NCBI GenBank assembly: GCA_005778835.1
Contig: SXMG01000128.1
Location: forward strand, 1 to 36,071
Length of the DNA: 36,071 bases
From: Actinomycetota bacterium
GTDB taxonomy: Bacteria > Actinomycetota > Actinomycetes > Actinomycetales > Microbacteriaceae
Direction of reading: 5' to 3'
Position 1 is the first letter of the stretch. Each line of letters opens with the position of its first letter. Under the pieces are notes generated by a model. It was not told the origin of the DNA. It saw only the letters and a program-made list of their open reading frames with translations, and made no database searches. Shown here in pieces: positions 19,973 to 23,381 of the stretch. A program made the position numbers and the translations under genes.

Positions 19973-21115
19973 CTAGCTCGCGTTGGCCTGCAACCAGGCG
20001 AAGGGGTCGATCGCGATGTCGTCGATGCGAATCTCGAAGTGCAGGTGGGCACCGGTCGAGGTGCCCGTGCTGCCGACGGTGCCGACGAAGTCGCCGACGA
20101 GTATCTGCTGACCGACGACGAGCGGCGAGCTGGCCGTCGTCATGTGCGCATAGGTGCTCGTGACGCGCTGACCGTTGATGGTGTGCTCGATGATCGCGTG
20201 GTTGCCGAAGCCGCCGCTGTGCTCGGCCTTGATGACGACGCCGTCGGCGATCGCGAAGATCGGGGTGCCCGCACCCGGGTTGAAGTCGAGACCCTGGTGG
20301 TAGCTCGAGCAGTAACGGCAGGGCGCGACGCGCTCGCCGAAGCCCGAGCTGATCGGCACGGCGGCCGGGAACGGCCAGCGCACGGCGCCCGACCCGCTCG
20401 TCGAGTAGGAGAAGTCGCGACTGCCGTACTTGAGACGCAGCATCTCGGCGTACGAGGTCACGCTCCACTCGTCGCGCGAGGCGACGGCCGCGGTCAGATC
20501 GGCGCCCGCCTCGACCTCGACGACCTGCTCTTCGGTGAGCGCGGGATCGGCGGCGGCCTCGTCTGCGGTGGCGATCGACGCCATGACGGTGGATGCCGGA
20601 GGTGCGTCGGGGTCGAACAGCGCCGTCGCGGGCACCGATGTGCCGACGAGCAGGGCAGCCGCGGCGAGCATGACGACGGGCGGGAAAGTCTTCTGGGCGA
20701 TGCGCCGGCGCAGCGAGGGGCGCGGCGCGGAGGGGCGCGTCACCACGGGCCCGGCGGGCGGAGAGGCGACCGCGCGCGGCACGGGTGTCGCTGCGACAGT
20801 CTCGGTCGCACCGAACGTCTGCGTCGCTGCGACGGCGGGCTCGCTCTCGGCGGGGCGGCGACCGCGCCGGCTCGTCGGCCGCGAGCGCTCTGCCTCGCGC
20901 AGCGCGCGGCGGCTCAGGGGCACGAGGTCGGTCGAGTGACCCGAGGGCAGCTGCTCGAGTGCGGCGGTCGGCACGTCGGCGGAGTTCGACACGACGGGCG
21001 CCTGAGCAGAGGATTGCTCGGTGAAGGAGAAGCCGAGAGACTCGAGCGCGTCGTTCGCGGTCGCAGGGGAATTCTGGTCAGAACCCTCTGCGGCCCACGG
21101 GAACTCGTTCGTCAC
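19973..21115 (-). CDS. M23-family (LytM-type) metallopeptidase, membrane-anchored
   Basis: A cell-wall endopeptidase homologue. Residues 1-140 are a cytoplasmic, charged, low-complexity region with SRRALREAERSRPTSRRGRRP. A single transmembrane helix spans about 144-165 (TFPPVVMLAAAALLVGTSVPAT). A linker follows, then the M23 domain (about 254-375). The zinc-site residues expected for an active enzyme are seen: His273 and Asp277 in SYHQGLDF, and His358-Leu-His360 in GAHLHFEI. Cys266 and Cys269 (APCRYCSSY) could pair. The GTG start gives 380 residues. It probably cuts peptidoglycan cross-bridges; a purely structural role is unlikely with an intact site. The leader (21116-21258) shows no riboswitch I recognise. 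Confidence 0.9.
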   Translation of the reverse strand: MTNEFPWAAEGSDQNSPATANDALESLGFSFTEQSSAQAPVVSNSADVPTAALEQLPSGHSTDLVPLSRRALREAERSRPTSRRGRRPAESEPAVAATQTFGATETVAATPVPRAVASPPAGPVVTRPSAPRPSLRRRIAQKTFPPVVMLAAAALLVGTSVPATALFDPDAPPASTVMASIATADEAAADPALTEEQVVEVEAGADLTAAVASRDEWSVTSYAEMLRLKYGSRDFSYSTSGSGAVRWPFPAAVPISSGFGERVAPCRYCSSYHQGLDFNPGAGTPIFAIADGVVIKAEHSGGFGNHAIIEHTINGQRVTSTYAHMTTASSPLVVGQQILVGDFVGTVGSTGTSTGAHLHFEIRIDDIAIDPFAWLQANAS

Positions 21116-21258
21116 GGTCGTCGTCAGCCTCAGATGTCAGTTGCTCAGGTCAGTGGTCGTCTCGCAGAGCGCGATTATCACGGATTGGTAAAGACTACCG
21201 GCTGCGCGTCGACAGCGAAAGTCGGTGAACACAATTCGCAGTTCGTACCGAGGTGCGG

Positions 21259-22104
21259 TCACGGCGAGGCATCGGTCGTGTCGCGCGGCACGGCCTCGAC
21301 CTCGCCGAGCACGCGCTCGAGCGCGACCGCGAGCTCGGGATGCGCTGCGAGCAGGAACCGGTGGTCGGCGCGCAGACCCGGCAGGCCCGTCACCCGGGCG
21401 CCGGCCTCGGCGGCGATGAGGGCTCCGGCAGCGTGATCCCACGGGCTCAGAGTTCGCTCGAAGTAGGCGTCGACGCGACCGCTCGCCACCGCGCAGAGGT
21501 CGAGCGAGGCGGTGCCCATGCGCCGAACATCCCGCACCAGGGGCAGCAGGCGCGCGACGGCCGCACCCTGCTCGGCACGCGTCTGCGCCGCGTAGGCGAA
21601 GCCCGTCGCGACGAGCGCCTGCGACAGGTCGACCGGAGGATTCACCTGCAGCGCACGGTCGCCGAGAGAAGCGCCGCCCCCCGCGGTGGCCGAGAAGAGC
21701 TCGCCCGTCGCCGGGTTGACGACGACCCCGGCGAGCGCCCTCCAGCGCTGCGGGTCGGCCTCGCCCTCGACCACGGCGATGCTCACGGCGTAGTGCGGAA
21801 TGCCGTAGAGAAAGTTGACGGTGCCGTCGATGGGGTCGACGACCCAGGTGAGCCCGCTCGTGCCCGAGGCACCGCCGCTCTCCTCACCGAAGAAGCCGTC
21901 GTGGGGCCGCGCCTCGGCCAGGCGGCCGCGGATCAGCGCTTCGGCGTCGCGGTCGACCTGCGTGACGACATCGACCGACGACGACTTGCGGTCGGCGACC
22001 TCGACGACCCCGCGCCGCGCCTCGAGAACGAGTGCGCCGGCCTCGAGGGCGACAGCGCGCGCCAGCGAGAGCAGTTCGGTGGTCGAGCTCGAGGGAGGAG
22101 TCAT
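21259..22104 (-). CDS. suhB: Inositol monophosphatase-family phosphatase (SuhB-like)
   Basis: A magnesium-dependent, lithium-sensitive phosphatase family member. Candidate substrates are inositol-1-phosphate, histidinol phosphate or PAP. The metal-binding motifs are visible: FFGEESGG, WVVDPIDGTVNFLYGIP and the C-terminal SPWDHAAGALIAAEAGARVTG. Length is 281 residues. The ATG at 22104 is chosen because the protein then begins MTPPSSSTTELLSLARAVALEAG, aligning with family N-termini. The track start at 22290 would translate tRNA-Tyr. The start codon shares its A with the encoded CCA end of tRNA-Tyr, leaving no room for a leader, so the mRNA must be leaderless after tRNA processing or start within the tRNA gene. 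Confidence 0.92.
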   Translation of the reverse strand: MTPPSSSTTELLSLARAVALEAGALVLEARRGVVEVADRKSSSVDVVTQVDRDAEALIRGRLAEARPHDGFFGEESGGASGTSGLTWVVDPIDGTVNFLYGIPHYAVSIAVVEGEADPQRWRALAGVVVNPATGELFSATAGGGASLGDRALQVNPPVDLSQALVATGFAYAAQTRAEQGAAVARLLPLVRDVRRMGTASLDLCAVASGRVDAYFERTLSPWDHAAGALIAAEAGARVTGLPGLRADHRFLLAAHPELAVALERVLGEVEAVPRDTTDASP

Positions 22105-22188
22105 GGTGGCGAGTGAGGGATTCGAACCCCCGAATGCTGAGCAGTCTGATTTACAGTCAGATCCCTTTGGCCGCTTGGGTAACTCGCC
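22104..22188 (-). tRNA. tRNA-Tyr (anticodon GTA), CCA end encoded
   Basis: A class II tRNA with a long variable arm. Acceptor arms GGCGAGT and ACTCGCC, discriminator A, then encoded CCA. The anticodon loop within GATCTGACTGTAAATCAGA gives GTA. T-loop is TTCGAAT. The last A of CCA (22104) is also the A of the ATG of the downstream phosphatase gene. Confidence 0.94.
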
Positions 22189-22234
22189 AGGTGCGCGCCC
22201 GACCCGTGTGGTCACCGACCGGAGGCGCCCCACA

Positions 22235-22240
22235 AGAATA
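22235..22240 (-). promoter_or_regulatory. -10 element for tRNA-Tyr
   Basis: TATTCT on the minus strand, 46 bp before the tRNA 5' end. The corresponding -35 position (TACCGC) is weak. Confidence 0.35.
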
Positions 22241-22306
22241 CAAGAGCGGCGGGGTCGGCGGTACCACGCTCGCGGCGCCGCATCCGGCACCGGGGCCGCG
22301 TGCGGT

Positions 22307-22312
22307 TATTCT
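22307..22312 (+). promoter_or_regulatory. -10 element for the LacI-family gene
   Basis: TATTCT, 31 bp before the ATG at 22344. A purine-rich GGGGAGAGAGCGAGG lies between and may serve as the ribosome-binding region. Confidence 0.4.
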
Positions 22313-22343
22313 GGCCACAGGGGAGAGAGCGAGGCCACGACGC

Positions 22344-23381
22344 ATGGTCGGCATCGACGACGTCGCCCGTCGTGCGGGAGTCTCGACGGCGACCGTGTCG
22401 CGCGCTCTGAGTGGTCGCGGGCACGTTGCCGCCACCACCCGCGAGCGCGTCGAGGCCGCCGCCGCCGAGCTCGGCTACGTCGTCTCGGCGAGCGCCTCGA
22501 GCCTCGCGACAGGGCGCACGCGCAACATCGGCGTCGTCGTGCCCTTCCTCAACCGCTGGTTCTACACCTCGGTCATCGAAGGCGCGCAGCGGCGTCTCAT
22601 GCAATACGGCTACGACCTGACGCTCTACAACCTCTCGGGCGACGATCGCGAGCGGGAGAAGGTCTTCACCGATCACCTGCTGCGGCAGCGGGTGGATGCT
22701 GTGATCGCCGTGAGCCTCGAACTGACGGTCGCCGAGATCACCTCGCTGCATGCGCTGAGCAAACCCCTCGTCGGCGTGGGCGGGCCGCTGCGGGGGGTGC
22801 GCACCCTCAGCATCGACGACGTGGCGGTCACGAAGCTCGCGACCGAGCACCTGCTCTCCCTCGGGCACACGCGCATCGGGCACATCGGGGGCGACGTCGA
22901 TCGCGAGCTCGCGTTCCACCTGCCGACCAACCGGCGCCTCGGCTACGAGGCCGCGCTGCGGGGCGCCGGGCTCATTCCCGAGCGCGACCTCTACTTTCCC
23001 GCCGTCTTCACGATGGAGAGCGGCTACACCGCGGCCAAGCAGATGCTCGGCACGCCTCGCTTGCGCCCGACGGCCATCGTCGCGGCGAGCGACGAGATGG
23101 CCATCGGAGCGATTCTCGCGGCGCGCGACATGGGGCTCGACGTTCCGGGCGAGCTCTCGGTGATCGGCATCGACGACCATGAGCTCGCCGCGTTCTTCGG
23201 GCTCTCGACCGTGGCCCAGTACCCGGGCCTTCAGGGCGAGCGCGCGGTCGAACTGCTCATGGAAGAGCTGCAGCCGAGCGGCAGCGACGATCTCGATGAC
23301 GAGAACACTCCCCTGCCGTTCGAGCTCATTGTGAGATCGACGACCGCTCGGCCGCAGCGGCGTAGCCCTGCGAGGCGGTAG
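22344..23381 (+). CDS. LacI-family transcriptional regulator
   Basis: A 345-residue repressor-type regulator. The N-terminal helix-turn-helix and hinge are clear (IDDVARRAGVSTATVSRALSGRG, then AAELGYVVSASASSLATGRT). They are followed by a periplasmic-binding-protein-like sensor domain (NIGVVVPFLNRWFYTSVIEGAQ ... AIVAASDEMAIGAI ... SVIGIDDHELAAFF). The ATG at 22344 is used; the track start at 22032 runs back through tRNA-Tyr. It lies about 2.4 kb beyond the alpha-glucosidase and is the only LacI-type gene in the window, so it is the natural candidate to bind the TGCAAGCGCTTCCA operators. Its last 56 bp overlap the converging lytic transglycosylase gene. Confidence 0.94.
   Translation: MVGIDDVARRAGVSTATVSRALSGRGHVAATTRERVEAAAAELGYVVSASASSLATGRTRNIGVVVPFLNRWFYTSVIEGAQRRLMQYGYDLTLYNLSGDDREREKVFTDHLLRQRVDAVIAVSLELTVAEITSLHALSKPLVGVGGPLRGVRTLSIDDVAVTKLATEHLLSLGHTRIGHIGGDVDRELAFHLPTNRRLGYEAALRGAGLIPERDLYFPAVFTMESGYTAAKQMLGTPRLRPTAIVAASDEMAIGAILAARDMGLDVPGELSVIGIDDHELAAFFGLSTVAQYPGLQGERAVELLMEELQPSGSDDLDDENTPLPFELIVRSTTARPQRRSPARR

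Follow-up and report, generated by a model that had tools for sequence, protein, structure and literature searches.

In a 36,071-nucleotide stretch of DNA from a bacterium of the actinobacterial family Microbacteriaceae (contig SXMG01000128.1, hereafter the window), the final A of the CCA end encoded by a tRNA-Tyr gene also opens the start codon of an inositol-monophosphatase (IMPase)-family gene. This arrangement probably represents a bacterial form of tRNA punctuation, in which one promoter would serve both genes, a cut within the CCA would give rise to a near-leaderless mRNA, and CCA repair would restore the tRNA. Our confidence is very high that the overlap is real and the start codon correct, and high that the arrangement is conserved and recurrent.

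The tRNA-Tyr gene (anticodon GTA) was called by ARAGORN at 22188..22104 on the minus strand with the CCA inside the call, while the Rfam model RF00005 matched 22188..22107. Read on the minus strand, the 3' border of the tRNA is ...CTCACTCGCC-A-C-C-A-T-G-ACT..., consisting of the discriminator A (22107), the encoded CCA (C 22106, C 22105 and A 22104) and then T 22103 and G 22102. Position 22104 is therefore both the last base of the tRNA and the first base of the ATG (22104-22102) of a minus-strand open reading frame of 281 amino acids (21259..22104, stop included). The one-base overlap described in an earlier note on this DNA is thus borne out. The encoded protein matched the Pfam family PF00459 (Inositol_P) from residue 9 (E 1.2e-62), scoring 212.3 bits against a gathering score of 27, which places it in the IMPase family. 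It fell well short of two NCBIfam equivalog thresholds, that of histidinol-phosphatase/HisN (TIGR02067, 160.9 of 275.15) and that of SuhB/IMPase (NF008027, 155.5 of 332). For this reason the gene name in the earlier note, suhB, is insecure and is used here as a label of convenience.

We propose that the tRNA-Tyr and IMPase-family genes would form one transcription unit read from the tRNA promoter, from which the tRNA would be excised by RNase P together with a 3' endonuclease. The 3' cut would fall inside the encoded CCA (AC|CAUG, between 22106 and 22105) and might be made by a C-preferring actinobacterial RNase E. The downstream product would then start C-AUG, with its AUG intact, and would be translated as a leaderless or nearly leaderless mRNA; the shortened tRNA would regain its CA through the CCA-adding enzyme. 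Because the cut would lie within the CCA and be followed by repair, both products would survive despite their common base. Judged from the sequence, co-transcription with a processing-made 5' end is a likely component of this scheme. By analogy with published cuts, the odds on the C|C bond being the main site appear about even, and those on RNase E being the enzyme somewhat lower than that. The earlier note had reasoned that 3' processing of the tRNA would either create a leaderless suhB mRNA or remove its A. The idea of a (nearly) leaderless mRNA is retained in our proposal, whereas the either/or choice is not, since a C|C cut with repair would provide a third route. The note's further suggestion, that enzyme expression could be coupled to tRNA maturation, is in a regulatory sense conjectural.

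Cuts at the bond predicted for the window junction have been mapped in two other actinobacteria. In Propionibacterium acnes, cuts within encoded CCA ends were reported to lie always between the Cs, in a species with no obvious RNase Z (PMC3848588), and a 5'-end map of Streptomyces coelicolor includes C|C cuts of CCA-encoding tRNAs (PMC4681348). Both reports propose repair by tRNA nucleotidyltransferase. As far as the cited passages of these reports go, mapped C|C ends within CCA are known from these two species only, the cut is not linked to a downstream gene, and the enzyme is left open. The authors of the 2013 report doubted a role for RNase E on the grounds that the E. coli enzyme prefers A/U (PMC3848588). 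Mycobacterial RNase E cuts 5' of cytidines, with RN|CNU at four sites mapped in vitro (PMC10641625), and this preference makes RNase E a candidate for the C|C cuts. The window junction, ACCAU (22103..22107, minus strand), fits the motif as A-C|C-A-U, with the U supplied by the middle position of the start codon. This fit is a matter of consistency, not independent proof, because any tRNA with discriminator A that is joined to an ATG will show it. At three other overlaps described below (L208, L213 and L224) the discriminators are pyrimidines, which counts against the motif there.

The components of such processing were sought by enzyme profile searches covering 13 genomes of the two genera in which the tRNA-Tyr overlap was found. 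What a C|C cut calls for is present here, in that the CCA is encoded and the CCA-adding enzyme (TIGR02692) was above cut-off in all 13. RNase E/G was likewise detected in 13 of 13 genomes and exceeded the cut-off in 12, with a fragment only in the incomplete window genome. RNase Z (TIGR02651) was above cut-off in none of the 13, with a best score of 21.8 bits against 292.95 and with controls responding. Its position below threshold in both genera resembles the report for P. acnes (PMC3848588, in the passage cited).

The rival that survives best, though we regard it as unlikely, is read-through from the tRNA promoter followed by a cut downstream of the CCA and exonuclease trimming, with suhB expressed from a minority of molecules, so that each transcript would yield a tRNA or an mRNA and not both. 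Further cuts a few nucleotides downstream of some CCA-encoding tRNAs are indeed reported for P. acnes (PMC3848588); cuts there would remove the AUG, which counts against our route, and under such processing the common base would make the two products exclusive. However, the C|C cuts described in the cited passages avoid this conflict (PMC3848588, PMC4681348), and the exact placement of the start codon on the CCA recurs in unrelated tRNA/gene pairs, which would be unexpected if the junction were harmful or indifferent. For the proposed C-AUG product itself, the C may lower leaderless initiation, because in mycobacteria an RTG at the very 5' end was found to be necessary and sufficient for it (PMC4633059).

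Conservation of the overlap among relatives, a check that the earlier note had proposed, was examined first within the genus of the window (named relatives include Microcella), for which 26 genomes were available and the IMPase-family gene was found in 23. The exact overlap (offset -1) was present in 10 of these 23, the window counted, while the remaining 13 comprised one genome with ACCACATG, two with ACCCATG and ten with a spacer. In a second genus, three genomes had the exact overlap, two had ACCAAATG and two had a spacer. Wherever the gene abutted tRNA-Tyr, the offset was -1, 0 or +1. In the SuhB protein tree the overlap rows of the window genus formed one group (90/87 support), except for one near-miss inside it, and those of the second genus formed a separate starred clade; the overlap required 3 changes on the tree against a shuffled mean of 10.8. 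These data support, with high confidence, the idea that the overlap evolved separately in the second genus and so had more than one origin. Among six overlap genomes compared, differences at four-fold sites were 0.42-0.52 for all but the closest pair (0.21), indicating that the junction has persisted while silent sites came close to saturation.

By chance, roughly one CCA in 16 would have TG as its next two bases. Across 400 genomes of the family, tRNA-Tyr ended GCCACCATG (CCATG) in 14, and in eight of these 14 no gene was present at that place, so that a single CCATG is weak evidence. It is the conservation of the overlap in two genera, and not a lone CCATG, that lies beyond chance. The overlap is absent from the majority of genomes in the family, and the arrangement is accordingly not required.

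Overlaps involving other tRNAs were sought in two surveys. In the class, 118 genomes scanned for T-arm..CCATG gave 34 true tRNAs and one convincing unrelated case, tRNA-Lys followed by yaaA. At this locus (L200, L201-L203) the final A of the CCA opens the yaaA start codon in each of the three gene-holding genomes of the genus of G419, which belongs to another family; protein identity was 71%, and the Pfam domain PF03883 begins at residue 1. In the family (170 genomes), overlaps were found for tRNA-His/Zincin_1 (L208), tRNA-Gly/DUF2470 (L213) and tRNA-Gly/DUF3465 (L224), the protein of the last having a signal-peptide-like start, and, less surely, for tRNA-Val and a DksA-TraR-like gene (L220). 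Most CCATG-ending tRNAs in both surveys were chance occurrences. Further apparent overlaps, L161/L087 (tRNA-Tyr/suhB of another genus) and L195 (tRNA-Ala with an adenylyltransferase-like gene), were left uncounted because a hairpin immediately follows the tRNA and a better start codon lies beyond it.

As a control, ATGs lying 0 to +9 after an encoded CCA were considered in the same genomes. Among the matches listed, none of 136 was a convincing start, compared with five loci among 50 at offset -1; real and chance cases were told apart partly by eye, and at least one known +1 case (G138 suhB) lies outside this set. Two candidates in the control, L386 (+1) and L373 (+9), were rejected as abutting starts since they have better internal starts. 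The comparison favours, without proving, a preference for the exact -1 overlap. It also bears on the possibility of a neutral coincidence, a chance CCA-TG frozen after the intergenic region was lost. The eight family tRNA-Tyr genes that end in CCATG with no gene behind them fit such a history, and a fusion could be inherited without being used. Nevertheless, we consider coincidence improbable in view of the separate origins in two genera, the unrelated tRNA/gene pairs and the contrast, among the matches listed, between 0 of 136 and five loci among 50. By extension, in actinobacteria generally an RNase E C|C cut with CCA repair might turn any open reading frame whose ATG begins on the A of a CCA end into a source of processing-born leaderless mRNA, with the overlap selected repeatedly; this wider reading is put forward tentatively and is rather doubtful at present. 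Under it, such genes would be tied to tRNA supply and 3'-end maturation.

To return to the window, a common transcript for tRNA-Tyr and the IMPase-family gene is suggested by the elements found around them and by those that were sought between them. TTGTAT[TC]CT or a close variant was aligned upstream of tRNA-Tyr in most of the genus genomes shown, and the promoter box TTGTATTCT is well conserved about 50 nt upstream of the tRNA. The window counterpart, TATTCT at 22235..22240 (minus strand), is the probable -10 box of tRNA-Tyr and the proposed sole promoter for both genes. Between tRNA-Tyr and the open reading frame no terminator was recognisable. The sequence upstream of the ATG, which is the tRNA acceptor strand, contained no GGAGG ribosome-binding site. 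In 24 of the 26 genomes of the genus a single tRNA-Tyr match was found. Given the conserved tRNA promoter, the single-copy tRNA and the absence of any detected element in between, every tRNA-Tyr precursor should have the mRNA attached as its 3' trailer.

Relatives in which the gene does not abut the tRNA suggest how the junction may have arisen. Here the gene starts at least 19 nt past tRNA-Tyr, and most spacers contain a stable hairpin. Many of these relatives have TAGCGT, GACAAT or GAGACT 6-7 nt before the start, a leaderless promoter pattern (e.g. TAGCGT-N6-ATG), and a few have a GGAGG-like site in place of this box. Ancestrally, the gene was probably transcribed from a promoter of its own, downstream of a tRNA terminator, and both elements were lost in this lineage as the open reading frame became joined to the tRNA end. 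These same leaderless-type promoters are what might favour an internal suhB promoter within the tRNA gene, in which case the mRNA would be leaderless by transcription initiation and the overlap would reflect genome compaction only. We consider this very unlikely. Positions -12 to -7 relative to the ATG read TCACTC, a hexamer that is fixed by the tRNA and lacks both A2 and T6 of TANNNT, in agreement with the earlier note, which had seen no -10-like box there. A promoter inside the tRNA gene, named in that note as an observation that would overturn its reading, was looked for and rejected, no promoter-like match being found in 20900-22400.

The pre-tRNA-Tyr leader is about 45-50 nt long (22193-22240 on the minus strand in the window; also L101-L130) and carries a hairpin-like element that recurs, reading CCGGTCGGTGAYCACACCGGTCGGG in the window genus and CTCCGGTCAGATGAATACATGTGGCCGGAG in another genus. 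In the window a hairpin is predicted at 22193..22228 (minus strand). The fold of leader plus tRNA was no more stable than that of shuffled sequences (z 0.70).

The ATG at 22104 is almost certainly the start codon in use, because in the window genome the next in-frame ATG, GTG or TTG occurs only at codon 107, inside the Pfam domain. A later start, which the earlier note had also named as contrary evidence, was rejected for the window genome on this basis, as none is plausible by sequence. Among nine overlap genomes compared, the nearest alternative starts were occasional TTG or GTG codons at codons 11-14 or later. In the alignment of overlap genomes, the single insertion near the N-terminus was exactly three codons long, and third positions varied more than first and second positions from codon 14 onwards. 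Upstream, the reading frame is open across the tRNA to a GTG at 22290, an openness that comes with the invariant tRNA sequence. Initiation elsewhere, whether upstream through that open frame or downstream at the TTG or GTG of codons 11-14 seen in some overlap genomes, is scarcely credible, since upstream translation would have to cross a folded tRNA, the next start in the window is codon 107, and in the yaaA case the Pfam domain begins with the first residue.

In animal mitochondria, tRNA punctuation means that excision of a tRNA sets the 5' end of an mRNA whose start codon lies within a few nucleotides and which has no Shine-Dalgarno sequence. In that system the tRNA genes do not specify a CCA, cleavage by RNase Z follows the discriminator, and processing acts on a polycistronic genome. 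The window resembles this system in that a start codon lies at a tRNA 3' end where neither a promoter nor a ribosome-binding site was found. It differs in that the CCA is encoded and its A shared with the start codon, in that single tRNA-gene pairs are concerned, and in that RNase Z was not above threshold in any of the 13 genomes. Bacterial tRNA-mRNA co-transcripts also begin as one precursor from which RNases separate tRNA and mRNA. In the textbook examples a separate ribosome-binding site serves the mRNA; at the window junction there is no room for one. The punctuation model is cited in PMC4633059 and bacterial co-transcripts are mentioned in PMC10673834. The predicted suhB mRNA is also like the actinobacterial leaderless mRNAs of PMC3848588, PMC4681348 and PMC4633059, in the passages cited, in lacking a leader and a Shine-Dalgarno sequence, and several relatives' versions of the gene carry a leaderless-type promoter as those mRNAs do. 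However, those mRNAs start by initiation at TANNNT, whereas tRNA processing would produce the 5' end of the suhB mRNA.

A search of the open literature, made in one library, yielded mitochondrial punctuation, actinobacterial leaderless mRNAs and the C|C cuts, but found no description of a tRNA-born leaderless bacterial mRNA or of a start-codon/CCA overlap, which does not in itself prove novelty. If the proposal is right, mitochondria-style tRNA punctuation would occur in free-living bacteria, and a single nucleotide would belong to a start codon as well as to the acceptor end of a tRNA by way of an in-CCA cut and repair. The proposal would also explain what the C|C cuts reported in 2013-2014 are for, indicate RNase E as their maker and provide natural reporters for tRNA 3' processing. 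For annotation, the junction is a warning that an open reading frame beginning on the last base of a tRNA can be genuine.

Several other features were seen in passing. The tRNA-Tyr of MAG 32-70-13 (L104 and L007) is without seven T-arm bases (GGGGTTC) and was missed by ARAGORN; it was the only tRNA-Tyr match found in this genome, which is incomplete, and it retains the ACC-ATG overlap. The T-arm gap is probably an assembly error. In many unrelated actinobacterial tRNAs the CCA is followed directly by TGTGATGAGTCG[GC]GACAT or a close variant (L133, L152, L172, L204, L222, L260, L294, L309 and L330), which is sometimes repeated and often near contig ends, with an integrase-like open reading frame downstream in L222. 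This motif resembles the terminus of an insertion sequence targeting tRNA 3' ends. Finally, a LacI-family regulator lies divergent from tRNA-Tyr on the plus strand of the window (22032-23381). The open reading frame as listed crosses the tRNA antisense; because the LacI domain begins at residue 108, its true start is probably near 22340-22350.
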